A stretch of DNA of 38,168 bases from an uncultured cyanobacterium (lineage in GTDB: Bacteria; Cyanobacteriota; Cyanobacteriia; Cyanobacteriales; FACHB-T130): positions 1 to 38,168 of the forward strand of contig CAKZHE010000025.1 of NCBI GenBank assembly GCA_936920195.1, read 5' to 3'. Each line of letters starts with the position of its first letter. Position 1 is the stretch's first letter. The notes beneath the pieces were generated by a model. It saw only the letters and a list, made by a program, of their open reading frames with translations. It did no database searches and was not told the origin of the DNA. Of this stretch, positions 13,734-38,168 are shown in pieces. The position numbers were made by a program, and so were the translations under genes.

Positions 13734-13775
13734 ATCCTTCCCGATTTCCACCCCGAAATCCAGATTAATTATCAA

Positions 13776-21954: not shown

Positions 21955-22008
21955 GTTTGGAGTTGGGCTTGAGCGCTATATAATTCGGGCTAAAGCCCAA
22001 CTCCAAAC
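21955..22008. terminator. Strong hairpin between pdxJ and ycf54
   Basis: GTTTGGAGTTGGGCTT (21,955-21,970) and AAGCCCAACTCCAAAC (21,993-22,008) are perfect 16-base inverted repeats around a 22-base loop. It begins at the pdxJ stop codon and lies before the ycf54 start, so it is placed to terminate or stabilise pdxJ mRNA. There is no clear T-run. The arms resemble those of the hairpin at 12,801-12,859, so it may be a dispersed repeat. Confidence 0.6.
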
Positions 22009-22730
22009 TAAAGAAGTCCTCGAATAGCCTGTTTCATTTCCCGGACAGCCCGTTCCATTCCCACTAAAGCGGCTCTACTGATAATGGTATGACCGATGTT
22101 GAGTTCTTCCATCCCTGGAATTGCCGCAATGGGATAAACATTCCAGTAAGTCAGTCCGTGACCAGCATTGACTCTTAAACCAGCCGCGATCGCCTGTTGG
22201 CAACCGCGAGCCAGTAAGATTAATTCTTGCCCTCTGCTTGCCTCATCTCTGGCTTCAGCATAGCGTCCGGTATGCAATTCAATAAATTGCGCTTTTGTCG
22301 CTGCTGAGGCCGCGATTTGATAGGGATCGGCATCGATAAATAGACTAACTGGAATTCCGGCTCCTTGCAACCGGGCGACAATTTCAGTTATTTTCACCTG
22401 TTGACCGCGAATATCTAAACCGCCTTCGGTGGTAACTTCTTCGCGCCGTTCGGGAACCAAAGTGATGTAGTCTGGTTTAATTTCCAGCGCGATCGCCACC
22501 ATTTCTTCCGTAGCTGCCATTTCCAAATTGAAATGGGTGCGGACTGTTTGCCGCAATAATCGCACATCTCGGTCTTGGATGTGCCGTCTATCTTCCCGCA
22601 GGTGCGCCGTAATCCCATCCGCGCCAGCGAGTTCGGCTAAAACTGCTGCCGCCACTGGGTCAGGTTCGACAGTGCGTCGTGCCTGCCGAATGGTAGCAAT
22701 GTGGTCAATGTTAACGCCAAGTGTGGGCAA
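22008..22730 (-). CDS. pdxJ: Pyridoxine 5'-phosphate synthase
   Basis: PdxJ condenses 1-deoxyxylulose 5-phosphate with 3-amino-1-hydroxyacetone phosphate to make pyridoxine phosphate (vitamin B6). From TTG 22,730 the protein has 240 residues, the usual length. Family motifs are all present: [78 protein letters not shown] and [11 protein letters not shown]. The frame stays open to 22,823, but the extra 31 residues do not match the family and run into repeat DNA; AGAAGGGA lies just before the TTG. It is a TIM-barrel cytoplasmic enzyme. Confidence 0.95.
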
Positions 22731-23110
22731 TCTTCCCTTCTCCCTACAATGCCAAAATCCTTCGCCCTCAATTCTACCCGAATAGTTGCGATGCAAGGCT
22801 GTTTCACACTTACTCAGGTTCAATTTCCGCTCTGTTTACTCGTTCCCAGGCTCCGCCTCGGATGACAAAGCGAGGCAGAGCCTCGCGATTCGGTTCCCAG
22901 GCAGAGCCTGGGAACCAGTTCAAGGGGAGTGAGAATATCGAACACGGTTATTGCATGAATAAAATTGCTCAAAAACTCGCAAAGTCAACAGCCTAGCCCT
23001 GCCCCATCACCCCATCACCCCATCCCCCCTGCCATCGAATTCAGTATCTAAATTGACTAAATACCAAATTATTTTCAAGTACAATTAGGCAAGCTTCATT
23101 TGGGTTGCCA
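22731..23110. repeat. Repeat-filled divergent gap upstream of pdxJ and the histidine kinase
   Basis: The 380-bp gap holds GGTTCCCAGG...CCTGGGAACC hairpins (22,842-22,916), copy 4 of the CTAG dispersed repeat (22,943-22,996, ending AGTCAACAGCCTAG) and a short tandem repeat of CCCCATCA (about 23,002-23,027). The last ~70 bases are AT-rich and contain TTGACT at about 23,053, a possible -35 box for the kinase gene. Confidence 0.55.
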
Positions 23111-24598
23111 ATGCTGCCAAAGTCAACTTCACAACCTGAATCGGATTTAGATAAAATCAAAACAGCGCGACAGATTAATGCTGCCGTAGTCAATATCAGC
23201 GGCTGCCAGCGGATGTTATGCCAAAGAACCGCCTTGTTTGCCTTGAGGCTAGCGAATGAACCAGATTTAGCCAAAAGAGATGAATGGCGGTTTAGCTTGC
23301 TAACTAATTTGGCTTTGATGGAAAAACAGCATCAGGGACTAATTGCCGGAAATCCAGATCTAAAATTATCTGGCAATCTATCCTCTGCCATTAGGAAGAT
23401 GTATTTCCATCCACCCTTGAATCTGAATCAGCAAATTCGCCGCTATATTGCTGAGGGGAGGATGCTGGCAGAATCAACAGATGAAGCGATCGCCCTCGAT
23501 AATCCTCACTTACAATATATTCTTGCCGCAGCCTCAGATCAACTATTAGTATCTTTAGATATAGTTGTCCAACAATATCAGAAAGAAAGCGAAAGCGAGC
23601 AAATAGCGATCGACATTTACCAAAATGAACTTTATTGCCAAAGTTGTACGGCTACTGCTATTGCCCAGGCACAGGCAAAACAGTTAAAAACTACTTTGTA
23701 CGAACTTCAAAAAACCCAAGCACAACTAATTCAAACTGAAAAAATGTCTGTTTTAGGGCAGCTAATTGCTGGAGTTGCCCACGAAATCAACAATCCTGTT
23801 ACCTTTATTTATGGCAATCTCACCTATGCCAGTAACTACGTGGAAGATTTATTAAAAATTCTGCAACTTTATCAACGACACTACCCCAATCCTCATCCCG
23901 AAATTGCTGAAGAAATTGACTTGATTGATCTAAATTTTTTAATTGAAGATTTGCCTAAAGTTTTGGGTTCTATGCAAATTGGTGCAGATCGTATTCACCA
24001 AATTGTCTTATCGCTGCGGAATTTTTCCCGAACAGACGAAATGAGTATGCAGCTAGTAGATATTCACACGGGAATTGAAAGTACGCTCTTGATTTTGCAA
24101 CATCGGCTGAAAGCTAATGGCAGAAATTGTGGGATTACCGTTCGTAAATCCTATGGGAAATTGCCCTTAGTAGAATGCTATTTAGGGCAATTTAATCAGG
24201 TATTAATGAATTTATTCAGCAATGCCATCGACGAGCTAGAAAAATCCGATCTTGAGCGCTCCAAGGCCGAAATTTACCAACAGCCTAGCCAGATTACCAT
24301 TGAAACTAAGGTTTTAGATCGACAAACTATTGCCGTTGGGATTGCGGATAATGGCGGAGGTATGCCGGAATCTGTGCGGCAGCGATTATTTGAACCATTT
24401 TTCACTACTAAACCTGTGGGTAAAGGGACAGGTTTAGGATTATCAATTAGCCAGCAAATTATTGTCGAAAAGCACAAAGGCAGACTGCGCTGCGAATCTC
24501 AACTAGGGCAAGGGACACAATTCTGGATTGAAATCCCCATTCGCCACAGCCAGGAATTGCCGAACAACAATTGGATGCCACAATGTAGCATTGCCTAG
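23111..24598 (+). CDS. Soluble histidine kinase with PilJ-type N-terminal domain
   Basis: A 495-residue protein from ATG 23,111. Residues ~10-155 resemble the PilJ/type-IV-pili transducer N-terminal helical domain ([28 protein letters not shown]). A coiled-coil linker ([31 protein letters not shown]) leads to the phospho-acceptor H224 in GVAHEINNP. The ATPase domain has the N box [11 protein letters not shown]1 DNGGGMP, F box FEPFFTTK and G2 GKGTGLGLS. No membrane helix or signal peptide is seen, so it should be cytoplasmic although this sensor domain is normally periplasmic. No response regulator is adjacent. Confidence 0.92.
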
Positions 24599-24812
24599 GG
24601 TGTAATGCCGTACATTCCCATAACTCTTATTTTCTCAGCTTTCTGGTTTTCAAAGTAATTCCCGCGTACCAATTTTGTGTACCACTGGGCCGGGAACCCT
24701 TATTCTTTCGTGAAAGGGGAAAGAGCGATCGCCCTCTCCCCACCTATAAGCAAATACCCCGGCAGCGCCCCAATCCAAATAAGGCAAGGTTATAGATAAT
24801 TAATGCGATCGC
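24599..24812. other. Junction region between backbone and accessory element
   Basis: No gene is seen in these 214 bp. The stretch contains two HIP1 sites (24,727 and 24,804) and an imperfect pair GTACCAATTTTGTGTACCA near 24,667, flanked by TTCCCG/CGGGAA arms. From here rightwards gene style and HIP1 content change, so an attachment site might lie in or near this gap, but its partner copy would be outside the window. Confidence 0.35.
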
Positions 24813-25061
24813 TTACTTCCAAAGTTTATTTACAACAAACGACCCAACTTCTACAATTATCACTCCCATCGTCACCCACAATTTCATGGTAGTATCCATC
24901 ACTGCAAGTTTGGTATTTAGGTTTGAGGAATTGCGGTTTTCCCGGTCGTTAACATCCCTTAAATCTTGCTTGAGTGATGAGACTTGCTCCTCAAGATAAT
25001 TGATGCGCGTACCGAAAACGCGATCGCAGTTGCCACAATATTCATCATTCCGCTCAGTCAT
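24813..25061 (-). CDS. Small CxxC / coiled-coil / single-TM protein, holin-accessory-like (XhlA-like)
   Basis: An 82-residue protein. Residues 8-11 form CGNC, residues ~20-55 a predicted coiled coil (INYLEEQVSSLKQDLRDVNDREN), and ~60-78 a single membrane helix (LWVTMGVIIVEVGSFVV) before a short basic end. This layout matches XhlA-type phage haemolysin/holin-accessory proteins, but homology is not proven. As the last gene of the leftward set it occupies a place where lysis genes often lie. The CxxC motif is unusual for that family. Confidence 0.5.
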   Translation of the reverse strand: MTERNDEYCGNCDRVFGTRINYLEEQVSSLKQDLRDVNDRENRNSSNLNTKLAVMDTTMKLWVTMGVIIVEVGSFVVNKLWK

Positions 25062-25100
25062 TGAATTTACTCCAGCGTTGGTTCAACCAAACTTCGGTAG

Positions 25101-25895
25101 CTACACATCCCTAGCCCAGTAGACACCACTTTCATCGTCAACCTTTCTCGCCAACCCTAAATCAGCCAATTCCTGCAAAGTGCCTGTAACATCTCGAACT
25201 GGAGCCATACCACCACTACCCCGGTGCAAAGCCACAATATCAGAAAGACTTTGAGGAACATCAGACAACAGCAGGAAAATAGATTGTTGTAAAGGTAATA
25301 ATTCTGCGGTACTGACTCTGGCAGCTAATGTTAGCGGTTCGCACCAATGAAAAACCTCAAAATTTAGGCGATCGTCACAGGGAGATTTATACCCAATTCT
25401 GCCCTTAAAGGTCTTTTCGGCTGTGTTTAAGATATTGGTTTCAGTGTACCCAGTGAAACTTTTCTTCTGACTTTTGGGAAGTATCCGAACGCCAATCAGT
25501 CGCCCTTGCAGTGGGCTACCCGGTTTGACATTGTAAGGGATTCTTAATTCCCTAGGTTTGGGCATAGCCCCAGTAAACATTAATCCTTGCCTACTGGGAC
25601 CAATCATTATCTCCTGAACAGGTGGAGCAGGAAAATAAAAAACTGAATTACCTTCAGCCCACATTGAGGGAGAGGAGAAGCTGGGATAGAATTCGCAGAC
25701 CTGAATATAGCACCCTAACCAAGCTCGACTGGGACTACTACTGCTTAGATCTAAGGTGAAGTTGTTGATTCTGATCAGGAAAAAATCAGATAAACTTCTC
25801 CCCCCAATGGTTCCAGTAGAGAAGGTGGCATCTGAATAAATCCATTGATAATGTTCTGTTGATTCTGGGACTAAATTAAGCAGTTCCCACGACAT
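25101..25895 (-). CDS. Unknown 264-aa protein of the leftward virion-like set
   Basis: I do not recognise a family. The first ~190 residues look beta-rich (WIYSDATFSTGTIGGRSLSD, FFLIRINNFTLDLSS, GRLIGVRILPKSQ), like a jelly-roll or carbohydrate-binding sandwich. The last ~65 are helical (LLPLQQSIFLLLSDVPQSLSDIVALHR, then VTGTLQELADLGLARKVDD, which resembles a winged-helix hairpin). There is no signal peptide. Its start overlaps the previous gene by 20 bp, so they are translated together. A receptor-binding or structural role is inference from context only. Confidence 0.7.
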   Translation of the reverse strand: MSWELLNLVPESTEHYQWIYSDATFSTGTIGGRSLSDFFLIRINNFTLDLSSSSPSRAWLGCYIQVCEFYPSFSSPSMWAEGNSVFYFPAPPVQEIMIGPSRQGLMFTGAMPKPRELRIPYNVKPGSPLQGRLIGVRILPKSQKKSFTGYTETNILNTAEKTFKGRIGYKSPCDDRLNFEVFHWCEPLTLAARVSTAELLPLQQSIFLLLSDVPQSLSDIVALHRGSGGMAPVRDVTGTLQELADLGLARKVDDESGVYWARDV

Positions 25896-26175
25896 TGCCG
25901 AAAACGTCCGTTATAAGAATTGGTGGCATTTCCTCGACGGCATCAACATAACTATCGATGTCTTGTTTATGCCAATGTTCGACGATATCAAGATAAGTTT
26001 CGCAATCAATTTCTCCCGCCAAGAAATCAAGTAATGCCCCATTAACTGAGACATTACGTTCGATTTCATACTCCAGCGCATCTTGACTATCTGTTGGTTC
26101 AACAATGAAGAAAGATAGCTGGGGCGAGACTAACTCAATTAGGCGACATAACTCGCCAGTAAGTTCATCAGGCAT
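25876..26175 (-). CDS. Unknown 99-aa acidic protein
   Basis: A small, strongly acidic protein with few basic residues (DALEYEIERNVSVNGALLDFLAGEIDCETYLDIVEHW, PPILITDVFG). It overlaps the upstream paralogue gene by 8 bp and the downstream gene by 20 bp, so it is in the middle of a tightly coupled operon. Small acidic proteins between structural genes often act as tail-assembly or scaffolding factors in phages, but nothing in the sequence proves that. Confidence 0.68.
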   Translation of the reverse strand: MPDELTGELCRLIELVSPQLSFFIVEPTDSQDALEYEIERNVSVNGALLDFLAGEIDCETYLDIVEHWHKQDIDSYVDAVEEMPPILITDVFGNVVGTA

Positions 26176-26728
26176 AGAGTCTTTCTGGCTGGAAACTAAC
26201 AGTAAACGCCGTGGCTGCTATCTTAGTTTTGATGGAAGCTTGTTGAGTAAATTCGTCCTTATTTGTGGTTGTTTGACCAAAGGGCTGAGTATAGGATGCT
26301 GCAATAATTTTGGTATAGGGCAACCCAGTGTAGTAGGCACTTGCCACCGGAGTTCGAGTAGTTGCCCTTTGAGCCAAAATAGCTTTTGAGGAAATGAATC
26401 CCTGATTGCGTTTTGTGCCTGCCACCACAGCATCCAAACCTAAGTCCGTCTCGGAAACAGTGGTAGCTGTCAAAATAGTGCCTGCCAAACTCCGTCCGCT
26501 GCAGCTAACCGCCAAGGGGGTACTCAACCCGGTACCAGCATCCTTTGTAAATCCAAATGGGTGTAGCTGCCTTCTCAGGGTAGCCCCTCTTGTTGTACTC
26601 CTCACCGTATTCGGGGCTGCGGTTCCTCCAGGTCGGGTCGATAGGTACCTACTAAGGACAGGACCAGTTCTAGCCGCCCCATCCCTAAGGGCATTATTTA
26701 GCCTTGAAAATCGTTGTGTTCTTCCCAT
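26168..26728 (-). CDS. Virion-like protein, paralogue 2 of the QRF...PERLY pair
   Basis: A 186-residue basic protein starting MGRTQRFSRL and ending SFQPERLYA. It is clearly related to the gene at 26,788-27,369: both share M-x-x-x-QRF-x-RL at the N-terminus, a shared core (YYTG-x-x-Y, then SYTQPFG), and F-x-PERLY at the C-terminus. The middle differs. AGGAG lies before the ATG. It is Thr/Ala/Ser/Arg-rich with little helix, as in beta-rich virion proteins. Family and function are unknown to me. Confidence 0.75.
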   Translation of the reverse strand: MGRTQRFSRLNNALRDGAARTGPVLSRYLSTRPGGTAAPNTVRSTTRGATLRRQLHPFGFTKDAGTGLSTPLAVSCSGRSLAGTILTATTVSETDLGLDAVVAGTKRNQGFISSKAILAQRATTRTPVASAYYTGLPYTKIIAASYTQPFGQTTTNKDEFTQQASIKTKIAATAFTVSFQPERLYA

Positions 26729-26787
26729 TTCCCCATCTCCTACTTATGTCAATCTTTTTAAGGCAAAGCTATTACTAAAAAATGCGA

Positions 26788-27369
26788 TTACAAGCCGTAG
26801 AGTCTTTCTGGGAAAAAGCTCATAGTAGCCCTTGGTATTGCATTTATAACCTTGTCTCTAAGTGTTTGACACTGCCCGGTAAAGGAAGTGGTTACAGCAG
26901 TACCAGTACCTACAATTCCAAAGGGCAAAGTATATGTTGACCCTCCCCTTGGCAGATACCTTCTACCACTGTAGAAAGCAGTCACTCTTGCGGCTGGGGC
27001 TGTAGCAGGTGGGACGAGTACCACTATTCTAGCCGGGGAGAACCCATTATCAATTACTGGATTAGCTCCCGTTCCCCCATAACCTAATTCTGCATCGCTC
27101 AAACCCAGAGTAGCTTGTTCTGCTTTAGGACGAGCATGGAGCGCTGCTTGATATCTTTCAGGTGCAGTTACAGGACTAGAAAAAATATTCAGCCAGACAT
27201 CAAATTTTTTACCTTTCCTACTAGCCGCAGGCAGGGTTGAATAAGTTCTCCTCCTCGTCCCATTTTGGTACTGCTGGAAAAGGTCAATCGGACTACCTGC
27301 TGTTGCCGTTCCCCCGGCATTAAGCTTTACACTTTGCTTAAGCCGATTAAATCTCTGTCGCTTCGCCAT
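26788..27369 (-). CDS. Virion-like protein, paralogue 1 of the QRF...PERLY pair
   Basis: A 193-residue basic protein starting MAKRQRFNRL and ending SFFPERLYGL, preceded by an ideal AAGGAGGTGGTGAAATG, the strongest ribosome site in the region, which implies high expression. It shares FYSG-x-x-Y, TYTLPFG and the PERLY end with the next gene. The Arg/Lys-rich N-terminal ~50 residues could bind nucleic acid, and the rest is beta-like. Strong translation and tandem duplication fit a major structural protein, though this is inference. Confidence 0.75.
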   Translation of the reverse strand: MAKRQRFNRLKQSVKLNAGGTATAGSPIDLFQQYQNGTRRRTYSTLPAASRKGKKFDVWLNIFSSPVTAPERYQAALHARPKAEQATLGLSDAELGYGGTGANPVIDNGFSPARIVVLVPPATAPAARVTAFYSGRRYLPRGGSTYTLPFGIVGTGTAVTTSFTGQCQTLRDKVINAIPRATMSFFPERLYGL

Positions 27370-27385
27370 TTCACCACCTCCTTAA

Positions 27386-27679
27386 TTAGATAACCGGAGT
27401 GGAACTGGAAAAGATAGAGACATTAAATTGATGGCGCTGCATGACTTCCCCAGTCTCAGCGGTGGAAACATAATTAGGAACTGAGGCAATAAATTTTTGC
27501 GGTTCATTCGCGAAGTTGGGATCGTTCAGGCGTTTATCTTGCTCTACCTTTGCCGCCGCAGTCAGAAAATGATAGGTAAATTGATCCGCATTCAAATCGC
27601 CATAGTTTAACTTACCATCTTCAGTAACAGTCAACTTACCACCGGACGCGTCGGCAATTTGCTTGACAGTGAGCTTCAT
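27386..27679 (-). CDS. Unknown 97-aa protein, first gene of the leftward set
   Basis: It begins MKLTVKQIADASGGKLTVTEDGKLNYGDLNADQFTYHFLTAAAKVEQD and ends with beta-like HQFNVSIFSSSTPVI. AGAGG lies about nine bases before the ATG. The N-terminus looks like a small alpha/beta or HTH-like unit (VKQIADASGGKLTV), but I cannot assign a family. It is 16 bp upstream of the strongly translated paralogue gene and shares its promoter. Confidence 0.68.
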   Translation of the reverse strand: MKLTVKQIADASGGKLTVTEDGKLNYGDLNADQFTYHFLTAAAKVEQDKRLNDPNFANEPQKFIASVPNYVSTAETGEVMQRHQFNVSIFSSSTPVI

Positions 27680-27754
27680 ACAAGAATTCCTCTACTTAAC
27701 GAAACTTCGACTAAATTCACCATAGCCCTGCCTACCCACCCCTGTCAAGAGCTG

Positions 27755-27779
27755 AAACCCTTGTTAATCAAGGGTTTTT
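27755..27779 (+). terminator. Intrinsic-terminator-like hairpin inside the divergent region
   Basis: AAACCCTTG (27,755-27,763) and CAAGGGTTT (27,769-27,777) form a 9-bp perfect stem with a 5-base loop, followed by TT and G on the plus strand and preceded by AAA, so it could work in both directions. Between divergent promoters it may act as an attenuator or block read-through; it could also be an operator. Confidence 0.55.
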
Positions 27780-27798
27780 GCCCATCTCAATAATTTAG

Positions 27799-27814
27799 CA
27801 ACCCTATAGGGTTG
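27799..27814. promoter_or_regulatory. Perfect 16-bp palindrome, candidate operator
   Basis: CAACCCTATAGGGTTG is fully self-complementary and lies 65 bp before the rightward set. Palindromes of this size between divergent phage promoters are typical repressor sites. The regulator is unknown; the XRE gene at 34,749-34,985 is one candidate, although its own upstream repeats differ (AATCG). Confidence 0.45.
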
Positions 27815-27878
27815 TCGAGAATAGGACGGATTTTTTGAAACTGATCGACTAGAATAGAAAATACTCCTCAAAGCACCT

Positions 27879-28379
27879 ATGGCAAACATCAACTGGGGGC
27901 CTGGCGCACCCTATACCCCTCCCACCTTAGAATCAGCGGCCTACCTGTTCGCCCAACAGTTGGCAGTCCTCCAGCGCTCTCCCAGTAGCAACCCACAAAG
28001 TAAAGACATTGTAGGTATTACTACGAATGACGTAACCGATACCGTTTCCATCAGCTTCAGTATCCCTTGTACGCCGACCAGAAATGCTGGTGGAGTTACT
28101 GTCTATTCCGTAGTGCAGTATTTTATTGGCGATATTTATGTCTTCAAGGCTGGCAATACATTGATTGCTACCCATCTTTTAGAGGCTTTTAAAGAGTGCA
28201 TTGAATTCATTCAAATTAAAGAATTTGATACTGCCTCAAATACAACTGCTGTCAACAATGTTTCATTCTCTATAACCTCGGACGGGACTAATTTCTCTGG
28301 CTCCCTAGTCCTAGACTTAACAGCAATAATTAGCACCGCTGGCACTGTGCAATATACGGCTAAATCTTATTTGGCATAA
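27879..28379 (+). CDS. Unknown 166-aa protein, first gene of the rightward set
   Basis: It begins MANINWGPGAPYTPPTLESAAYLFAQQLAVLQRS. The rest is beta-rich with alternating polar residues (DTVSISFSIPCTPTRNAGGVTVYSVVQYFI, NNVSFSITSDGTNFSGSLVLDLTAII). Length, Gly/Ser/Thr content and lack of a signal peptide resemble a small tail or capsid-decoration protein, but no family is recognised. It ends 59 bp before the collar-like gene; both start MAN. Confidence 0.68.
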   Translation: MANINWGPGAPYTPPTLESAAYLFAQQLAVLQRSPSSNPQSKDIVGITTNDVTDTVSISFSIPCTPTRNAGGVTVYSVVQYFIGDIYVFKAGNTLIATHLLEAFKECIEFIQIKEFDTASNTTAVNNVSFSITSDGTNFSGSLVLDLTAIISTAGTVQYTAKSYLA

Positions 28380-28438
28380 ATCCCCGATAATTCAAGTTAG
28401 AATTTGGGATGTTTGATAAATTCAATTAATCGAAAGCA

Positions 28439-29245
28439 ATGGCAAACGAAATCACTCAACAGGAAATAGTAGAAGTTACCGATGCACTGATTACTGAAGC
28501 TAATATTTCTATCAATACTTATCCTTTGTGGACGAATTCAGTTACTCAACAAGAGACTGATTGGTTGAACAAAGGCTATGAAATTAATGTTAGGAATATT
28601 GTCAGCAACTTCATGCTGGACTATACACTTACCTCCTTAAAGGCAGCATCACCGCCTATCGTTCCGATTGAAGCGAGCCAGAGTGAAATGCAGCGAGCCT
28701 ATGATGATTGGCGATGGAATGCGCCTCAATATCGAATTACTTTAATGAAGTCTGTTGACAACGGTGCAAACTGGCGACAAATCGCCATCATTCCACTGAT
28801 TCAGCGCGGGGATAAGCCTTATGTCAGCATTGATTTAATGCCGTATATTAGTCCGGGCAATAGCAGAGCCTTTAATTCTAAAACTTTATTAGGATTTAAA
28901 GGGATTACGGCTGGAAATGGATTAATTAAATCAACAGATGTACTAACTATTTCAGCTACAGTATCTAAAATTATTACGGTCACAAATATGGGCGACCCAA
29001 AAAGGTTGATAGGGGAAATCATTATGATACAAGGGAAGACTTCAACACCGCCTGGATTTCTCCGATGTGATGGGCAGACCGTTAGTAAAATGATCTATCG
29101 CGATTTGTGGTTGCAAAATCAGTTTGTCCAAGGAGTTGATGCGGGAGGAGATAGTTTTTATATCCAAAACATGAATCAACACTGGGAGAATGTTTATGGC
29201 TGGAGTTTTGCCTACGATTACTTCGTTTACACGGGGGTTTACTGA
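28439..29245 (+). CDS. Phage tail-collar-like protein, 268 aa
   Basis: Residues ~190-235 read GEIIMIQGKTSTPPGFLRCDGQ followed by TVSKMIYRDLW, which is the phage tail-collar signature (PPGWLLCDGQ-x-S-x-x-x-Y-x-x-L) found in tail fibres and microcystin-dependent protein. The N-terminal ~190 residues are alpha/beta and unlike known fibres; the last 30 are aromatic (HWENVYGWSFAYDYFVYTGVY). This is the clearest phage-type feature in the accessory region. Its TGA overlaps the ATG of a 27-codon ORF. Confidence 0.72.
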   Translation: MANEITQQEIVEVTDALITEANISINTYPLWTNSVTQQETDWLNKGYEINVRNIVSNFMLDYTLTSLKAASPPIVPIEASQSEMQRAYDDWRWNAPQYRITLMKSVDNGANWRQIAIIPLIQRGDKPYVSIDLMPYISPGNSRAFNSKTLLGFKGITAGNGLIKSTDVLTISATVSKIITVTNMGDPKRLIGEIIMIQGKTSTPPGFLRCDGQTVSKMIYRDLWLQNQFVQGVDAGGDSFYIQNMNQHWENVYGWSFAYDYFVYTGVY

Positions 29246-29328
29246 TGGATGGGGTCTTCAATGTGATGAATGAAGGGAAGGAGCTTAATCCACCCCCTGA
29301 ATCGCGCCTAGGAAACTTCTACAATTGA
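29245..29328 (+). CDS. Putative 27-codon micro-gene coupled to the collar-like gene
   Basis: The collar gene stop TGA (29,243-29,245) overlaps an ATG (TGATG) that opens MDGVFNVMNEGKELNPPPES and closes at TGA 29,326-29,328, twelve bases before the next ATG. It fills the whole gap between the two genes in frame with termination-reinitiation geometry. The peptide is short and has no known family. It may equally be a coupling leader or chance. Confidence 0.4.
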   Translation: MDGVFNVMNEGKELNPPPESRLGNFYN

Positions 29329-29340
29329 TTTTGAGGTGTT

Positions 29341-31566
29341 ATGGAGCCGGTTGGGATAAAAGAAAGAGACATAGAAAGAGATTACACTCCACCAGTGGAG
29401 CGGGGACCAGAAGCCCTACAAGAGTTTGTAGACATAGACCAGAAGTGGACAGACGGAGAAACTAGAGGAGATCTTAGATATAGAGCTAGAGGTGATGACG
29501 AACGAACCCAAAGCACTATTTCGCGCCCTTATGGAGACACTCCTGGCGGGAGGCAAATAGATGTCGATATAACAAGCAAAAATCGTAAGACGGGCGATAC
29601 TTTTGAAGAAGACAGGACAATCATATATGATGATCTGTCGAAAATTCCAGGGAGGCGTTCTTATGAGTCTAATTCCAGATTTAATCGGCCTAACAAGATC
29701 GACTCAACAACCAGAACAGTAATTGACACCGAAATAATTGTTGAGGGTTGCTGGGTTTATGTTTATTTAGTTGTAAGCTCTGTGACGGAAATCTCTCTCG
29801 ATAATAAACCTTCCAGGGTGTTTGGCGGAACAGAGGTAGTATTGGACGACAGCTATATGCTGCCATTTTGCAATAGGCCACCTAAGCAGGCAGACCCAGA
29901 ACCAGGAGAACCCCCGCCAGTTGTTTGGAAACCTGTTGAATTCAAAGGGGGACAATGCAATGGGATGTGGTACAAAGTTTTGTTAAATTACTCGGTTAAC
30001 GGAATTTATGATATTTACAGTAAAAAATCCCTACCGCCATTTATTTATCAACAAAGTATCTACTGTCGAGGCCCGATAAAATCAATTTTTTTGAAAGAAA
30101 CAACGATACCAAGGGGGCCAACACTTCCAGAGTTTTACTATACTAACAATTCCTTTTTCGTTGTTTGCAATGGCCTTGTCCCCCCATCCAATAAACACAC
30201 TATTGCTCAAGAGACTCCCAGTGGGCCGGGATACATAAATGAATGGACAGCATACTCGCAGTCCTGGGATCGCAGACCTTTCCACGGGCAAGTGGATGTA
30301 TCCCCATTGGGGGCAACCGTAACCCCTTTACGACCAGAAGATCAGGACACCTGCGGCAACCCAGCACCTATCCCAGAGCCGCCGCAGGTGATTAGATGGT
30401 GGGATTGGGTTCCCCCGCCGCCACCGCCTTATCAACCAAGGAGAGAAGAGAAAATGGAATGTTGCGATTTAATTTATTCTGAGGTGCGCCGATTGCAGGG
30501 AATGCAGGCCAAAAGCGAACAACAACGCAATTTGGACTTGTCAGCCGTTCATCAAAAATTAGACCTTTTAATTGGACGAATTGGGAATCCCCAAATTATC
30601 AGAATATTGGATGAGAATCCTAAAGAAGAGGGGTATCAATGGAGTTTCAAGCGCCCTGATAATTTGTTTGAATTGCTAAAGATAATGAGCGATTCGGCTG
30701 AACAGACGGGGTTTGCCATTGGAAAGCATGAATATCCGATTACGGTTAAAGTAGACGATTCCTGGCTGCAAGATTTAGATAGTATGCTGTCTGACAATAT
30801 TGATCAGCTAGCTGATTTCTTGAAGTTCCTTGATATTGACACTTACACTGAAGGGTTGCCAAGTCCGTTGAGGCTTGGACTGTCCCTGCTCGCGCCTATT
30901 GCGCCCAAAGATATCGCTTTTGTTACCAAATGGATTATCGACCGTGCTAGGGAATCTCAAGAAAACAAGAAGATTGAAAATCTGACTCAATTAATTAAAT
31001 ATCTGCAACAGGATGTGGCTGACGTAGCTGAAGCACAAGCGGACGGTGAAGAAAGTGATGTATTTCCGCTGACGATTGATGCCAGTAGATTTGGGGGAAG
31101 TGGAGAAATAACTTTTGAAGATAAGGAAGAGTTCTACTCAGAACTTATTGTCTTGTTGACTGGAAGTGTGAAACAAAATGCTACATTAGTGGATGCGGCA
31201 ATGAAGACGGTGGCAGAAACCAGTCATGCTAAAGTTGAAGCAGCCAAATGTTATATATTGCTAAATGAAATTTCGCAGTACATGGACTATGGGCGCAGAA
31301 GTCGGATTTTTGACATTCCCATTCAATATACACCAGGGCAACCGAAGCCCTCAAAAGATATTAGTAAGGGGTTCAATGCCGGAGCAGTAAATGATGGCAA
31401 GGGAGATGCCTATCTAATGGAAGACTTTTTTGAAAACTCTAATGCTAAGGTAGGAATTGATGAGTGGGATGGAGAGAATTCTATGAGGGATTTGTTTATT
31501 GAAATCTTGGATGCGCTCGCCGCAATTAGACCTGGAGCCACGGGAGGGGGAATCACCCTAAGTTGA
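29341..31566 (+). CDS. Large unknown structural-like protein with polyproline hinge, 741 aa
   Basis: No family is recognised. Residues 1-350 are charged then beta/loop-rich, beginning MEPVGIKERDIERDYTPPVERG and containing PGEPPPVVW near 190. A polyproline hinge (WVPPPPPPYQPRREEK) near 355-370 leads to a helical C-terminal half, with ECCDLIYSEVRRLQGMQAKSEQQRNLDLSAVHQKLDLLIGRI as a coiled coil and later acidic helices (ENLTQLIKYLQQDVADVAEAQADGEESD). It is acidic, has no membrane segment or signal peptide, and follows GAGGTG. Its size and position fit a tail or minor virion protein, by inference only. Confidence 0.75.
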   Translation: MEPVGIKERDIERDYTPPVERGPEALQEFVDIDQKWTDGETRGDLRYRARGDDERTQSTISRPYGDTPGGRQIDVDITSKNRKTGDTFEEDRTIIYDDLSKIPGRRSYESNSRFNRPNKIDSTTRTVIDTEIIVEGCWVYVYLVVSSVTEISLDNKPSRVFGGTEVVLDDSYMLPFCNRPPKQADPEPGEPPPVVWKPVEFKGGQCNGMWYKVLLNYSVNGIYDIYSKKSLPPFIYQQSIYCRGPIKSIFLKETTIPRGPTLPEFYYTNNSFFVVCNGLVPPSNKHTIAQETPSGPGYINEWTAYSQSWDRRPFHGQVDVSPLGATVTPLRPEDQDTCGNPAPIPEPPQVIRWWDWVPPPPPPYQPRREEKMECCDLIYSEVRRLQGMQAKSEQQRNLDLSAVHQKLDLLIGRIGNPQIIRILDENPKEEGYQWSFKRPDNLFELLKIMSDSAEQTGFAIGKHEYPITVKVDDSWLQDLDSMLSDNIDQLADFLKFLDIDTYTEGLPSPLRLGLSLLAPIAPKDIAFVTKWIIDRARESQENKKIENLTQLIKYLQQDVADVAEAQADGEESDVFPLTIDASRFGGSGEITFEDKEEFYSELIVLLTGSVKQNATLVDAAMKTVAETSHAKVEAAKCYILLNEISQYMDYGRRSRIFDIPIQYTPGQPKPSKDISKGFNAGAVNDGKGDAYLMEDFFENSNAKVGIDEWDGENSMRDLFIEILDALAAIRPGATGGGITLS

Positions 31567-31567
31567 T

Positions 31568-31807
31568 ATGGCGGAAAAAGATAAATCGAAGCAACAACAA
31601 GACAGAATCAGGCAAAATATTGAGACTCAACTTAGTCGCCCTGGACATAGTTTGGCACAGACTAATTCTATTCAAGCCCTAGGGAAACAAACTTGGGAAG
31701 AGTTTGTCGCATTCCTCAAAAAAGAATATCCACACCTGAATTTAGATCTCGACAAGTTTAAGCCCCAAGCTGCCAATGCAAAAATGCCAATGAAGGGAGG
31801 TAAATAG
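31568..31807 (+). CDS. Unknown 79-aa Gln/Lys-rich protein
   Basis: A hydrophilic, mostly helical protein (MAEKDKSKQQQDRIRQNIETQLSR, then WEEFVAFLKKEYPHLNLDLDKF). It starts one base after the previous stop and ends with GGAGG-containing codons that form the ribosome site of the next gene, so it is certainly in the same operon. Scaffold or chaperone is one guess; there is no direct evidence. Confidence 0.65.
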   Translation: MAEKDKSKQQQDRIRQNIETQLSRPGHSLAQTNSIQALGKQTWEEFVAFLKKEYPHLNLDLDKFKPQAANAKMPMKGGK

Positions 31808-31809
31808 TT

Positions 31810-32754
31810 ATGGGATGGGGAAGCGTATTGACGAAAATGTCAACGTTCGGGACAAAAGTCCAAAAGGCTGCGAAAGCTGCTAAAGGGGCAGCGAAAACAG
31901 CAGGCAAGGGAGCCGCCAAGGTAGGGAAGGGAGCCGCCAAGGTAGGGAAAGGAGTTCTCAAGGGTGGAGGTGCGGTAGTTGCTGGAACTCTGGGAGCCTT
32001 GAAATATTTTGGCAGTATCGCATTAAGTTCGCTTCTTACCCTTGGCTTTATGAAGTCCATTTCTTCGGTATGGAGTGGGGTGGTTCAAACTGTCCAAATC
32101 GCCTATAGCTACAACATTAATGCCACGGATAAGGAGATAGAAGCATCAATCACGTCTAACATCAATGCTCTGAAGGTGCAGTTTCTAGGCTCAATGGCAT
32201 ATTCGCTCTCTTGGCTAGTTTGCGGTGGTTTACCAGGGGCGCTGACTCACGCCATCAATCCCGGCATTGCCAGTCAACTTCTGGGTTATAAAGACCCACA
32301 GACTAAGAAGTGGGTGGGGGGAACGTTGACGGATGAGGGGCGACAGGAAGTTTTATCTAGGATGACGGCGATTAGCTACGGCTGTTATCGGAGTACGATT
32401 TACGCCACTATGTCGAGAGCTTTTAAATCGGCTCGCCGTTGGTTGAAGCGACCGGGACACCCTTTCCACAACATGATTAAAGCTCAGATGGGGGAGGAGA
32501 ATTTTAAAAAGTGGGGGGATGAATCGCTGCCGCTGTGGAGTTTTGCCTCCCATGTTGAGAATAGAATAGAAAGTATTAAAGACCCGCAGAAACGGGCAGA
32601 AGCAGAGGCGATTGTAGAAAACCTTCTGGAGGGTTGTTTGGAAGGGTCTACGGCTTTTGTGAATAGTCTGGATGCGGCGCTCGCGGCGCAAAGAATGGCG
32701 CAGGAAGCTATGTTAGGGGCGTATGGCGGGGTAACTGTTTCTGTAGGAGTGTAG
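31810..32754 (+). CDS. Membrane-associated protein with histone-like Lys/Ala/Gly-rich N-terminus
   Basis: A 314-residue protein. Residues ~18-55 are a low-complexity basic stretch (KAAKAAKGAAKTAGKGAAK and KVGKGVLKGG) with two in-frame copies of GAAKVGKG, like the tails of histone H1-type or phage DNA-condensing proteins. Two hydrophobic segments follow (VVAGTLGALKYFGSIALSSLLTLGF, and FLGSMAYSLSWLVCGGLPGAL). The C-terminal half is helical and amphipathic. A role in holding DNA at a membrane or capsid is conceivable. GGAGG lies before ATG 31,810. Confidence 0.7.
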   Translation: MGWGSVLTKMSTFGTKVQKAAKAAKGAAKTAGKGAAKVGKGAAKVGKGVLKGGGAVVAGTLGALKYFGSIALSSLLTLGFMKSISSVWSGVVQTVQIAYSYNINATDKEIEASITSNINALKVQFLGSMAYSLSWLVCGGLPGALTHAINPGIASQLLGYKDPQTKKWVGGTLTDEGRQEVLSRMTAISYGCYRSTIYATMSRAFKSARRWLKRPGHPFHNMIKAQMGEENFKKWGDESLPLWSFASHVENRIESIKDPQKRAEAEAIVENLLEGCLEGSTAFVNSLDAALAAQRMAQEAMLGAYGGVTVSVGV

Positions 32755-32762
32755 TACCCAAA

Positions 32763-33455
32763 ATGGGGAAGGCATTTTTCGTCGGTAATGATTTGTTGGT
32801 TCGGCAAAGTATTCTGATGTATTGTGCCTTCCTGGATATGATCCATGACCGCGACATCGGTACATTTTGCGGTGATACTAATGACAATCTTCTCAGAACT
32901 AAGAATTTTGGTTTAAGTCTAAAAATTCTATTTTCTGAACATTCTACGCCGCCTTTTTATCGAGATGCTCAGATAGGCCGATATAATATTCCTTCTATTG
33001 ATAGGAGCAAGCTTGATTGGTTGGTAATTAAAAATGCTTGTGGTGGTGCAAATGGGTTTATGTATGGCAATTATCGCTATACATTAAATTGCCGGGATAA
33101 GCACGATGGTTCGTTGCATCAATTAAGCTGTCACGGTAATTCGCCCCAAGAGGCTGAGGCGCAAGTAATGAGATTCTTTGCCCTGACGCATCTAGAAGCG
33201 CTCACGGATAGCTCTACGGAGGAAAAAAAGACGCTACGAAGTCAGACTCATAGCGCCAAGGTTAAGAAGGCTGTGCGGGTTCACCCAATTCGCTGTACGG
33301 TGATGTCTCAGGCTGCTTCCAAAAAGTTGAGTGCGAGGAAAACTTTGGATGGTCCGAAGAAAACGGCGGATTATAGTTTTCCTTTGTGGACTAAGAAAGC
33401 ACCGCTGGATTTTGAAGCTGAAATCAAAAAGTTAATGGCTTTGGGGACTAATTAG
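32763..33455 (+). CDS. Unknown 230-aa protein with basic C-terminus, last rightward gene
   Basis: The N-terminal ~145 residues contain FVGNDLLVRQSILMYCAFLDMIHDRD, YTLNCRDKHDGSLHQLSCHGNSPQEAEAQVMRFFAL and several Cys/His residues. The C-terminal ~85 are Lys/Arg/Ser-rich (HSAKVKKAVRVHPIRC, ASKKLSARKTLDGPKKTADYS). The basic tail could bind nucleic acid. No family is recognised. It overlaps the 3' end of the convergent HNH gene by 4 bp. Confidence 0.68.
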   Translation: MGKAFFVGNDLLVRQSILMYCAFLDMIHDRDIGTFCGDTNDNLLRTKNFGLSLKILFSEHSTPPFYRDAQIGRYNIPSIDRSKLDWLVIKNACGGANGFMYGNYRYTLNCRDKHDGSLHQLSCHGNSPQEAEAQVMRFFALTHLEALTDSSTEEKKTLRSQTHSAKVKKAVRVHPIRCTVMSQAASKKLSARKTLDGPKKTADYSFPLWTKKAPLDFEAEIKKLMALGTN

Positions 33456-33769
33456 CTTTTTGGCTTTTTTATAAAACGATTGAACAATAATGCTTCTGTT
33501 ACGGTGATGTTGAGTCGGTTGTCCGCGCACTTGCGAACATAGCAAGGGGTGCAAAGGGCTATGAGGTTTTCGGGTTGGTTATTTTCGGGGTTGCGATCGA
33601 CGTGATGCACGGTCAGCGTAAACATTGCTTGTAGGTAGCGATCGCCGCGCCATTGCTTGGGGTCTGAACAGTCAATTCCGCATTGTTGACATTTCCAATT
33701 GGCGGCTTCTTTGACTGCGATCGCGATCGCTTTCCAGTTCTTGGGATATCGGGAGAAATTCATCGGCAT
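33452..33769 (-). CDS. HNH endonuclease
   Basis: A ~105-residue protein with an intact HNH nuclease: CQQCGIDC, then LTVHHVDRNPENNQPENLIALCTPCY, which gives two zinc-binding CxxC motifs and the catalytic histidine pair. HNH nucleases of this size accompany phage packaging modules or act as homing nucleases. The GTG at 33,808 would extend it by 13 residues into the repeat region; ATG 33,769 is preferred. A HIP1 site doublet lies inside it. No terminase is adjacent. Confidence 0.88.
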   Translation of the reverse strand: MPMNFSRYPKNWKAIAIAVKEAANWKCQQCGIDCSDPKQWRGDRYLQAMFTLTVHHVDRNPENNQPENLIALCTPCYVRKCADNRLNITVTEALLFNRFIKKPKS

Positions 33770-34222
33770 GGGTCTACTCACTTGGGTGGTGGTTCGGGCT
33801 ACTTCCACTCACTTCCACTTACTTCCAGGGTGTAAGTCTGGGAAGCCACTGGTAGTCAGCACTTCCGGGCTTACACTTCCACTTACAGAACTTCCCATCA
33901 GCTAGTTGGGAAGTTGGAAGTATAAGTTGGGAAGTTGGGAAGTTAGTTCGGAATTTTCCAGCTAGTTGAACTCGAACCTTCCTAACTCGAACTCGAACTC
34001 GCGAACTTGGTTCTGGGAGTAGGTTAGGGAAGTTTGGCAGTTTGGCGATCGCTAACTTCCCTAACTGGGGAAATGTTTTTTCCGAACTTTTCCCAATGTG
34101 GAAAAGTTTTCCGGAAGTGGAAAACCCGGAAAACCTTTGGGAAAGCGGGTTTTCCGGGTTTGGGAAAAGTTTCCGGGAAATTTTCCACAGCTAGTTGGAA
34201 ATTTCCGGGAAAACTTGAATTT
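33770..34222. repeat. Repeat-dense noncoding region, candidate origin or partition site
   Basis: The region is full of short repeats. Bases 33,801-33,830 are three 10-bp tandem units ACTTCCACTC/ACTTCCACTT/ACTTCCAGGG. ACTTCC recurs to 33,892, then the complementary strand motif GGGAAGTT appears at 33,908, 33,929 and 33,937 and near 34,026, so the halves can fold back. CAGCTAGTTG occurs three times (33,899, 33,959, 34,188). TCGAACTCGAACTCG is a short tandem near 33,985. From 34,080 the DNA is built of TTTTCCGG/CCGGAAAA motifs. No protein-like ORF is supported. It borders the replication-type genes, which suggests an iteron origin, centromere-like site or packaging signal. Confidence 0.6.
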
Positions 34223-34579
34223 TTAGTCTGGGTTCAGGTCGATCGGATCTAATTCATCCTGGTCAATGTCAGCAATTCGCCAGTAGTGATTGACGGGAAT
34301 CACGTTGTCAACAAAAGCTTGGTCAGCCATATAGTCATAAAAAACTTGGTATGACCAGCCAAAAACTAGGCCATTGTTTCCTCCATCTTTTTTGACAAAC
34401 GAGCAGCCAGTGACAAAACCATAGTTGGTGAATGTCCGTCCAAATCTTGCCCGATCCTGTTTGTCGTGACAAGTCCAGGTGTATTCTACTTGCTGACCTA
34501 TTTGGAATTTGGGTTGAGGGAATTTTTTAACCCATTCAGGGTCTGAGGGCGACAGGGTATGAATCTCTTGCGCTAGCAT
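34223..34579 (-). CDS. Unknown 118-aa protein, possibly SH3-like
   Basis: It contains KFQIGQQVEYTWTCHDKQDRARFGRTFTNYGFVTGCSF, then NGLVFGWSYQVFYDYMADQAFVDNVIPVNHYWRIADI, a strand-rich pattern like small SH3-like barrel proteins of cyanobacterial plasmids. The C-terminus is acidic (DIDQDELDPIDLNPD). No named family can be assigned. It is preceded by a gap with a terminator-like hairpin. Confidence 0.65.
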   Translation of the reverse strand: MLAQEIHTLSPSDPEWVKKFPQPKFQIGQQVEYTWTCHDKQDRARFGRTFTNYGFVTGCSFVKKDGGNNGLVFGWSYQVFYDYMADQAFVDNVIPVNHYWRIADIDQDELDPIDLNPD

Positions 34580-34621
34580 ATTTAAGCCTCATTGTTGACT
34601 GTGAACATTTGGGGAAGTCCT

Positions 34622-34662
34622 CCTGGGGCGGTGCGTCAACACCGCTCCAGGGGGCATTTTTT
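34622..34662 (+). terminator. GC-rich hairpin with T-run
   Basis: CCTGGGGCGGTG (34,622-34,633) pairs with CACCGCTCCAGG (34,640-34,651) with one mismatch, followed on the plus strand by GGGCATTTTTTA. This is a typical intrinsic terminator reading rightwards, yet no rightward gene precedes it here, so it may end an unannotated RNA arising from the repeat region. A second weaker pair GGATGGGC/GCCCATCC lies at about 34,694-34,740. Confidence 0.55.
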
Positions 34663-34748
34663 ATTGGGACTCTAGCCGAGGGATTAGGAAAGGATGGGCG
34701 GTCGTTAATTGGTGCATTGAACGAGTGAAAATGCCCATCCGAAAGCTG

Positions 34749-34985
34749 TTAGCCGTGCATGACAAGGTTTTGGGGTAGCTCTTCAAACCTTCTCCCAACT
34801 GCCTGACAAAACTTATCCCACTGCTGCTTTGTCATGGCGGGTTCAGTTCCCTTTTCCCATCGTCGGAGCGTTGAGCTTGATATGCCTAGTTCATAAGCTA
34901 GCTGTTCTTGAGTAAGTTTTGCTTCTTCGCGCAGTTGTTTCAAGGTTGAGTCGATCTCCTGTTGACCTTTGCTTCTTTTAGCCAT
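34749..34985 (-). CDS. XRE-family HTH transcriptional regulator
   Basis: A 78-residue protein with a Cro/CI-type helix-turn-helix: LKQLREEAKLTQEQLAYELGISSSTLRRWEKGTEPAM. Lys-rich N-terminus MAKRSKGQQ. It is about the size of small phage or plasmid repressors. The DNA just before its start has three AATCG repeats at 13-bp spacing, a plausible self-binding site. Confidence 0.9.
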   Translation of the reverse strand: MAKRSKGQQEIDSTLKQLREEAKLTQEQLAYELGISSSTLRRWEKGTEPAMTKQQWDKFCQAVGRRFEELPQNLVMHG

Positions 34986-35009
34986 AATATCACAATAGGC
35001 GACTAAATC

Positions 35010-35040
35010 AATCGACTGTTTTAATCGATTAACTTAATCG
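35010..35040. promoter_or_regulatory. Three AATCG direct repeats at 13-bp spacing, with TTAATCGATTAA palindrome
   Basis: AATCG occurs at 35,010, 35,023 and 35,036, exactly 13 bp apart, and the central copy is part of the perfect 12-bp palindrome TTAATCGATTAA (35,021-35,032). This cluster lies 25-55 bp upstream of the XRE start, so it is probably its operator; it could also be a short iteron set. Confidence 0.55.
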
Positions 35041-35671: not shown

Positions 35672-35720
35672 TGCAATGCACCAAAACATCAATATCTAGT
35701 ATTCCCCCCAATCCATCCAA

Positions 35721-36458: not shown

Positions 36459-36505
36459 TAGAGAGCGATCGCCCCTTATCCATTTGAACTAGGAACTTGA
36501 AAACA

Positions 36506-36913
36506 ATGCGCCATCAATTATTTGGCATTAAATACAGAATTGGCGAAGGAATTTGTGCTGCCGGAGTCTGTTTCACCACTTCGGTTGCGATTGGGTTTAG
36601 TTTTCAGAAAAGACTATCGCCGACTGTCGATACGTTAATCATTCACTTGCTATTTATAGAGGTTTTTGTTCATCGCACCGCCTTCAGATTTGAAGTTGCT
36701 ATGAACATCGAAACCTTATGGGAAAAAATAGTCGCTATCTGCAATGGAGCAATAGTCTCCGATGACTCGGCTGTATTCCGAAGCGAGAAGGATTCAGATC
36801 ATTACCACTGGATATTGAGACACCAACGTGTTTGTAATGACGACGATGACGATTACTGGGGACCTAGTGATGACGAATGTGAAGACCAATACCCGCATGA
36901 GGACTACGAATAA
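36506..36913 (+). CDS. Acidic-tailed unknown protein, paralogue B
   Basis: A 135-residue protein from ATG 36,506, with AGGAA ten bases upstream; the TTG at 36,497 would be weaker. It shares LWEKIVAICNGAIVSDDSAVF and H-x-x-W with paralogue A and also ends in an acidic tail (NDDDDDYWGPSDDE). Its TAA overlaps the ATG of the helicase-like gene by one base (TAATG), so the two are translationally coupled and probably functionally linked. Confidence 0.7.
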   Translation: MRHQLFGIKYRIGEGICAAGVCFTTSVAIGFSFQKRLSPTVDTLIIHLLFIEVFVHRTAFRFEVAMNIETLWEKIVAICNGAIVSDDSAVFRSEKDSDHYHWILRHQRVCNDDDDDYWGPSDDECEDQYPHEDYE

Positions 36914-38168
36914 TGTTTGCAGCAGCAACAGACAGATTGCCACCCCAATCAGTAGACGCGGAGGAAGCCATCCTAGGCGGCATCCTATTAGACCCAAACG
37001 CCATTGAACGAGTCAAAGACATCCTCCAACCAGAAGCTTTTTACTTCAATTCCCATCGCAACATTTACCGCGCTGCCCTAGCCCTGCATGAAGATGGTAA
37101 GCCTACAGACTTATCCGGAGTCACCAACTACCTGAAAGATAAACACTGGCTAGAAGGCTGTGGTGGAACAGAGAAAATGGTTCAGCTAGTTGATAGAACT
37201 GTTTCCGCCGTTAACATTGATTATCTCGCCGGGTTAGTCAACGAGAAATATCGCCGTCGCCAAATCATTGAATTAAGTTTGGAAATTCACAATCTAGGCT
37301 ATGACACCTTTACCAATGAAGCTGTCATCTTAGAAGAAGCCAAACTAAAGCTAGAGAAAATTGCCTCATTATCCACTGGGGTTGTCACCACCAAAGAGAA
37401 ATTAATTGCCGAAATCAAGAAGATCGACCAATTAGAGTCACCCGTAGACCAATACTTTGCTTGGGACAAACTAGCTAAAGACACTGGCAAAAGTGTCAAA
37501 ACCCTAAAAGAATTGGCAATGGCAATTGAAGCTGATGAACCTTTAACGGTTTACTCAGCCAAAGAATTCGCCCAACGCCAAATCGTTGAAACTGAATGGC
37601 TAGTCCCCGGCTTACTGAGGATGGGAACCACCAGTTTGCTAGTAGCAGAAAGTAAAACTGGTAAATCCCTACTTCATTACGATTGGGCTTATCACATCGC
37701 CACCGGAACCCCTTGGGGAGAATTCCCGGCTGCTGACCCTCAAAACGTGCTAATTGTCCAAACCGATGAACCGGAAATTGATTGTCAAACCAGAATCAAA
37801 TATCGTGGTTTGGATGAACTTGACAATGTTAATATTCTCACCAATTTCTCAACCCATCGCATCGGCAGACTCAGAAAGGAAATTCAGAAGAGAAACATCA
37901 AAGTAGTCATCATTGACTCTCTACTCAGCATCAACAGATTCTCATCCGTCAATGCGAACGAGATTGAATTTGCCTATTTCATGTATCGTTTAAAGGATTT
38001 AGCCAGCGAATTTGGTTGCCATTTTCTACTAATTAGCCATACCAACAAATCAGCCAGTACAGGTCTAGATAAAATCGCTGGCAGCTACGGCATCCCGGCG
38101 AGCGTGAGTGATATTTTCCTACTATCCAGAAAACCTGCTGCCCCACCTGACGACTTGGAAAGAATTCT
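36913..38168 (+). CDS. DnaB-N / RecA-fold (RepA-like) replicative ATPase, right end cut
   Basis: Open to the window edge, at least 418 residues. Residues ~8-120 match the DnaB helicase N-terminal domain (PPQSVDAEEAILGGILLDPNAI, then FYFNSHRNIYRAALALHEDG). After a helical linker comes a RecA-like ATPase that resembles plasmid RepA/AAA_25 rather than DnaB: Walker A is ESKTGKS (246-252) in LLVAESKTGKSLLHYDWAYHIATG, Walker B is VVIIDSLLS with D335, and LLISHTNKSASTGLDKIAGSYGIPAS follows. The protein would act as a replicative helicase or its loader for the element. Translation is coupled to the acidic-tailed gene. Confidence 0.85.
   Translation, partial: MFAAATDRLPPQSVDAEEAILGGILLDPNAIERVKDILQPEAFYFNSHRNIYRAALALHEDGKPTDLSGVTNYLKDKHWLEGCGGTEKMVQLVDRTVSAVNIDYLAGLVNEKYRRRQIIELSLEIHNLGYDTFTNEAVILEEAKLKLEKIASLSTGVVTTKEKLIAEIKKIDQLESPVDQYFAWDKLAKDTGKSVKTLKELAMAIEADEPLTVYSAKEFAQRQIVETEWLVPGLLRMGTTSLLVAESKTGKSLLHYDWAYHIATGTPWGEFPAADPQNVLIVQTDEPEIDCQTRIKYRGLDELDNVNILTNFSTHRIGRLRKEIQKRNIKVVIIDSLLSINRFSSVNANEIEFAYFMYRLKDLASEFGCHFLLISHTNKSASTGLDKIAGSYGIPASVSDIFLLSRKPAAPPDDLERI

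Follow-up and report, generated by a model that had tools for sequence, protein, structure and literature searches.

Twin basic proteins of an undescribed family in a conserved, fibre- and lysis-associated cassette of cyanobacterial mobile elements

What do two adjacent, similar genes of a cyanobacterial contig encode, and in what kind of element do they lie? Both genes are situated on the reverse strand of the window, the whole 38,168-nt stretch of DNA that was analysed, and the initial annotation took them for tandem paralogues and candidates for a novel major virion protein. The first paralogue, c1a (26788..27369, (-)), encodes 193 aa with a pI of 10.7, and the second, c1b (26168..26728, (-)), encodes 186 aa with a pI of 10.95. 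Their N-terminal starts, MAKRQRFNRLKQ and MGRTQRFSRLNN, have the motif QRF-x-RL in common, their C-terminal ends, FFPERLYGL and FQPERLYA, share PERLY, and the cores, YSGRRYLPRGGSTYTLPFG and YTGLPYTKIIAASYTQPFG, both contain the pattern Y-[ST]-G...[ST]YT-x-PFG. The local alignment of the two proteins scores 96, whereas 500 shuffles reach at most 65; therefore they are paralogues (blastp E 8e-5), and the tandem pair with its common termini and core is real, both open reading frames being present at these coordinates. Thus, c1 is duplicated in the window and the copies have since diverged. The duplication is not a general trait, since the window is the only one of 46 c1 loci, itself counted, to contain two c1 genes above threshold; L115, a locus outside this set, has two adjoining, weakly similar genes, both below threshold. 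Similarly, the claim that c1a possesses the best ribosome site holds within the window, where pairing with the 16S end has an energy of -15.3 in c1a (the strongest among 16 genes compared), -12.0 in c6 (the next best) and -8.0 in c1b, but across the family the c1 site is the strongest or tied in just 9 of 44 loci, which rules out a strong ribosome site as a family trait.

The c1 family is undescribed. Neither c1a nor c1b matches Pfam or PHROGs at E up to 1, or NCBIfam at E up to 0.1. When 46 c1 members are scanned against PHROGs, ten families are matched weakly, each by at most two members and with a best E of 0.012; the single-member matches to a 'virion structural protein' (0.012) and a 'minor tail protein' (0.04) are too weak and scattered to be usable. 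A tblastn search of 50,697 phage records with c1a yields nothing at E up to 10, and c1, c6 and c7 have no relative in the phage records searched. Queries with c1 (two), c6, c7, the C-terminal part of c13 and the c5 of the window also find no relative in viral contigs, in scans built on short conserved patterns that distant relatives could escape. No relationship is detected between c1 and the other cassette families, and searches of the open-access PMC literature listed no paper with a description of these elements in its title or abstract start. In cyanobacteria, c1 is present in 12 of 195 genomes of the order (single-protein query), in 35 of 388 genomes of the class, approximately 1 in 11 (profile search), and in 23 of 386 genomes of a phylum sample (wider profile, stricter limit), the own genome being counted in each case. 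A scan by the neighbouring c7 family returns 24 loci, every title of which is cyanobacterial; these loci overlap the other locus set, and the two sets are not independent.

The AlphaFold2 model of c1, built from 18 sequences, adopts an alpha/beta fold of moderate confidence (mean pLDDT 75, pTM 0.64). The best Foldseek E values are 0.46 in PDB and 0.40 in BFVD, and the best VIA-align Z of 3.5 (rmsd 2.7, 62 residues) lies at noise level. Viral capsid chains occur in the fold lists at E of about 1 (nora virus, 1.1; permutotetra-like virus, 1.4), and no tail-tube beta-sandwich matches the moderate-confidence model in the PDB, BFVD and VIA-align lists. Hence, the jelly-roll, tail-tube or capsid match that was to be sought in structure databases did not emerge at significance, and a jelly-roll or tail-tube fold for c1 is without support, although the absence of a family from these lists is no proof against that fold. 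Meanwhile, no confident enzyme-family match, named beforehand as the result that would speak against a virion protein, appeared, and the absence of family and fold matches in Pfam, PHROGs, NCBIfam, PDB and BFVD bears out the word 'novel'. The second cassette protein that was folded, c7, likewise has an alpha/beta model (pLDDT 83). In comparisons with BFVD and by VIA, it has one separated BFVD match, the nameless A0A510E869 (E 2e-3, probability 1.00, TM 0.40), for which a literature search returned no paper, and a VIA-align Z of at most 4.8 on PDB (rmsd 2.9, 51 residues).

The c1 proteins are predominantly basic, with a median pI of 10.0 (range 5.5-11.0) and a median charge of +9.7, and those of the window carry charges of +15.6 and +14.6. 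They are soluble by hydropathy, TM-like segments being found in 2 of 47 proteins. The neighbouring c2 is acidic in 40 of 40 cases, with a pI of about 4.05-4.8 (median 4.05); in the window it comprises 99 aa (25876..26175, (-)), with a pI of 4.05 and a charge of -19.

Clustering of the open reading frames of the window and 46 fetched loci defines a conserved cassette, in which a large fibre-like c5 or c13 is followed by c9 or c7, c1, the acidic c2 and c3, with further fibre-like and lysis genes. The 46 c1 loci contain 47 c1 proteins, the window included; c2 is found in 40 of these loci, c3 in 24 (again counting the window among the loci), a c7 or c6/c9 relative in 41, and a c13 or c5 relative in 43. 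Nearly all of these loci were fetched by c1, so that its constancy there is a matter of selection, and some are cut by contig ends. Among the 24 loci fetched by c7, c1 is present in 19 (E<=1e-5, filters off), and two plasmids, Tolypothrix unnamed14 and pHT582-2, carry cassette genes but no recognised c1. The c13 and c5 proteins are related through their C-terminal parts (hhalign 97.6), while the match of c7 to a merged c6/c9 profile is weak (hhalign probability 61). Some relatives have a c6-c9 fusion, and in others c7 occupies the place of c9. In c13, a highly variable N-terminal part, in the form of a coiled coil or of proline-rich or collagen repeats, precedes a conserved C-terminal part, a layout that suggests an anchored fibre. 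In c4, by comparison, the N-terminal part is conserved and the C-terminal part variable. Among the fibre domains adjoining the cassette are Collar, with a match under the Pfam cut-off, and a phage tail repeat together with F5/8C; the lysis domains include M15 and VanY peptidases with peptidoglycan-binding domains, as well as an endolysin. The phage-type fibres and the endolysin are present in relatives, whereas the window has just the fibre-like match of c4. Collagen repeats are located within the fibre-like c13 of two plasmids from one Nostocales strain (L118, 10582-12720; L116, 3393-5525). In L116, a 1,664-aa protein (9827-14821) adjoins a reduced cassette and contains what we take, by its motif, to be a possible MACPF-like stretch.

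In the window, the cassette is divided between two operons. Downstream of c1b and c2 on the reverse strand, a 264-aa protein, c18 (25101..25895, (-)), occupies the place of c3 and has one relative, at L019; beyond it, an 82-aa protein with one C-terminal TM-like segment (24813..25061, (-)) is in a holin-like position and has a very weak XhlA-like match (E 0.08). A 97-aa gene (27386..27679, (-)), with no relatives among the fetched loci, is located between c1a and the promoter region. The divergent regulatory region separating the two operons (27680..27878) is followed on the forward strand by c8 (27879..28379, (+), 166 aa) and c4 (28439..29245, (+)), a candidate receptor-binding protein whose Collar match (E 1.3e-4) is below the Pfam cut-off and whose best match to PHROGs tail families has an E of 3e-5. 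Next are c5 (29341..31566, (+), 741 aa), which shares homology with the c13 proteins in their C-terminal part; a 79-aa gene (31568..31807, (+)) at the position where the plasmid pMIC7113.08 has a 90-aa gene; c6 (31810..32754, (+), 314 aa); and c9 (32763..33455, (+), 230 aa). An HNH nuclease-like gene (33452..33808, (-)), with its best Pfam match below cut-off, and a helix-turn-helix regulator (34749..34985, (-)), a protein of a general type found in 21 of 46 loci, lie further along. The element runs to the contig end, inside a replicative helicase with a DnaB N-terminal domain and AAA_25 (36913..38168, (+)). A second tandem paralogue pair (36054-36458 and 36506-36913, (+); blastp E about 1e-6) adjoins this helicase. 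Outside the element, 7554-7781 (-) is a shortened near-copy of the middle of the gene at 3902-4546 (-), which is presumably Uma2-like.

The spacing of the genes sets c1 apart. The gap before c1 has a median of 104.5 nt (range 16-278, 38 cases with a same-strand neighbour), whereas the other cassette genes (c2, c3, c5, c6, c7 and c13) mostly abut or overlap the upstream neighbour, with medians of -4 to 5 nt; a few longer gaps also occur before c3, c5, c13 and c2. The median is 4.5 nt for c2 and -4 nt for c3, which overlaps or abuts its neighbour in most of 24 cases. Furthermore, a palindrome that no more than 2 of 40 dinucleotide shuffles reach is present within 110 nt upstream of c1 in 18 of 47 cases, the other 29 failing the test; c2 has such a palindrome in 0 of 40 cases, c7 in 1 of 30, c3 in 3 of 24 and c13 in 5 of 34. 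Some of the loci are near-duplicates. In a slightly different set with 100 shuffles, the palindromes of 24 of 52 c1 leaders are reached by at most 5. A second copy of the locus's own palindrome elsewhere in the locus was seen in 1 of 16 loci, with 3 mismatches. Among 12 longer stretches from 11 loci, perfect palindromes with arms of at least 6 are absent from 6 (L016, L056, L063, L117, L118 and the short stretch of L025). The window has no such palindrome directly before either c1; instead, the perfect palindrome CAACCCTATAGGGTTG is located in the divergent region (27799..27814), is reached by 0 of 200 shuffles, and shares an identical 14-base core with the palindromes before c1 in L080 and L090. 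It is a candidate regulator site at the c1 operon that may have been kept despite the changed gene order. A further inverted repeat with similar half sites, AAACCCTTG-5-CAAGGGTTT, lies next to it at approximately 27755-27777. The promoter-like TTGACA-18-TATGGT facing the c1 operon (27719..27748, (-)) is a consensus match in a region with 10 such matches against a shuffle mean of 8.3, that is, with no enrichment. A sigma-70 promoter was rejected as a feature of c1 leaders, which have a mean score of 4.8 against 5.9 for shuffles; a G-N-TAGA motif, picked after the leaders had been inspected, is found in 14 of 47 leaders, whereas shuffles give 3.9 (9 at most).

The relatives of the window element are mobile. 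In 6 of 46 loci, the cassette is located between direct repeats of tRNA 3' ends, 9.9-16.9 kb apart: tRNA-Gly in L016 (16.9 kb), tRNA-Lys in L023 (9.9 kb), tRNA-Cys in L064 (14.3 kb), tRNA-Glu in L067 (15.5 kb) and in L079 (13.8 kb), and tRNA-Met in L083 (12.6 kb). In these delimited elements, the cassette is accompanied by primase/helicase-like and integrase-like genes, except that L023 has the att repeats but no recognised integrase. The ends of a 15.2-kb contig, L059, are identical over 60 bases, as in a circle. Complete circular plasmids carry cassette genes including c1 (pMIC7113.08, 20,803 b; pHT582-1, 37,028 b) or with no recognised c1 (pHT582-2, 15,633 b; Tolypothrix unnamed14, 20,757 b), and two copies in one 6.3 Mb contig are 94.8% identical over 8 kb. 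In the window, neither an att repeat nor a tRNA-Lys remnant is found, the contig shows no integrase (the best candidate of its own genome is a weak match and lies on another contig), and Rfam returns nothing for 22000-38168. Three recombinase clusters occur in the c1 loci, namely a small tyrosine integrase (15 loci) and two others, which we take to be larger integrase-like (12 loci) and IS110-like (11 loci); the elements seem to exchange recombinases.

The content of the elements was assessed with 122 proteins, 114 of at least 90 aa from seven relatives and 8 of the window. At E<=1e-4, the Pfam scan gives 20 families, including integrase, peptidase M15, collagen, malectin and primase-type domains, among them D5_N and VapE-like primase domains. 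Terminase, portal and capsid are absent from all 20 families, although very divergent versions could escape, and none of the three is among the best 25 of 72 PHROGs families matched at E<=1e-4; the families listed first are integrase (6 members), endolysin, tail fibre and primase. The other cassette proteins of the window likewise show no terminase, portal or capsid in Pfam and PHROGs. No ATPase common to all elements is seen, and a subset has related membrane-anchored ATPases, which might be a motor for DNA packaging or export. ATPases that are weakly related and have hydrophobic stretches at the N terminus are found in L015 (16220-17689), L021 (1-762), L025 (14036-15442), L064 (7937-9421), L074 (11874-13229) and L117 (13323-14513), the last with weak FtsK/HerA matches.

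On the reading to which we give about an even chance, the window would cover a portion of a small temperate element, mobile now or in the past, and the conserved cassette would encode an extracellular particle with c1 as a basic structural protein. Elements of this kind are probably viruses or phage satellites. The cassette may be the particle-making part of such an element because of its conserved operon, fibre domains, lysis genes and tRNA integration. An abundant structural protein is the most likely role of c1 because the gene is steady together with c2, possesses its own leader and encodes a basic protein. On this basis, c1 would be a soluble protein of the particle, probably abundant, made from its own regulated leader and perhaps in contact with nucleic acid, and c2 could serve it as an assembly chaperone. 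The c5/c13 proteins would form an anchored spike or fibre, and c4 a receptor-binding protein with exchangeable tips. The genes behind c3 would supply additional fibres together with a peptidoglycan hydrolase and a holin-like protein, and release of the particle would be by lysis. Against this reading stand the lack of a fold or family match between c1 and any structural protein and the absence of relatives from the viral contigs and phage records searched, so that no particle-derived sequence is known. The strong ribosome site confined to the window, the relatives with no recognised c1, the lack of a recognised integrase in L023 and the 29 c1 leaders that fail the palindrome test also speak against it.

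Phage satellites (PICI, P4-like, PICMI) have sizes of about 10-17 kb, tRNA att sites, an integrase, a regulator and a primase. The present elements resemble them in all of these, with att sites in 6 of 46 loci, D5_N and VapE-like primases and no recognised capsid, portal or terminase family among the 122 proteins. In that case, the cassette would add to or redirect the particle of a helper phage, for example in adsorption, with c1 and c2 as part of the addition. This is a serious rival because size, att sites and primases fit satellites equally well, but on balance it is somewhat doubtful. Unlike satellites, the elements possess a conserved cassette of their own that includes fibre and lysis genes, they have no known helper, and none of the core cassette proteins tested matches a phage protein for which it could substitute; to our knowledge, typical satellites lack a cassette of 5-7 kb that combines several fibres with a lysis gene.

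In a bolder reading, which we regard as unlikely, c1 would be the major virion protein of a cyanobacterial virus lineage whose capsid has an unknown architecture and whose packaging machinery escapes recognition; the lineage would be widespread as small proviruses, integrated at tRNA genes or existing as plasmids, that virus finders miss. The relatives do supply the phage-like context that the initial annotation supposed (tRNA sites, integrases, endolysins, fibres and operon), but 'major virion' itself is a step that we infer from the c1 leader, the strong ribosome site in the window and the basic charge. A Caudoviricetes prophage is defined by terminase, portal and HK97-type capsid genes. The elements share with this group an integrase, a repressor-like HTH, fibre domains (Collar, tail repeat), an endolysin and a holin-like gene at the operon end, but are much smaller, and no terminase, portal, capsid or tail-tube homologue was found in them at the sequence level. 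In genome size, integration and anchored spike-like proteins, they resemble small tailless or filamentous prophages (corticovirus-, tectivirus- and inovirus-like), but no common protein family was found with these, and c1 is neither a jelly roll, according to the model, nor a short membrane coat protein. An inovirus has a short single-span membrane major coat protein and a Zot-type ATPase; in contrast, TM-like segments occur in 2 of 47 c1 proteins, and no Zot family is found in Pfam at E<=1e-4 among the 122 proteins, although some relatives have membrane-anchored ATPases.

The cassette might also encode a particle that kills or adheres without being infectious, similar to a tailocin or bacteriocin, and that plasmids and integrative elements carry as cargo, a view that accommodates the fibre domains, the peptidoglycan hydrolases and the lack of recognised DNA-packaging genes. 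It is quite improbable, because no sheath, tube or baseplate homologue is among the Pfam families found in the 122 proteins, and the delimited cassettes are situated with primase/helicase- and, except in L023, integrase-like genes, unlike a host-owned locus. Equally improbable is an intracellular role for c1 and c2 within a structural operon, c1 as a basic toxin or DNA-binding protein and c2 as its acidic antitoxin or partner. Such a pair would suit the opposite charges, the constancy of c2 (40/46), its short gap and the upstream palindromes, but is at odds with a position inside an otherwise structural-looking operon, where c3 mostly overlaps or abuts its neighbour.

The c1 family is present in 35 of 388 genomes of the class, yet the searches of phage records and viral contigs turned up no relative. 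Should the elements make particles, a common group of cyanobacterial viruses or satellites would have been overlooked, since its core genes resemble none known. Delimited and circular copies exist, some of them in named strains, which makes the question directly testable.
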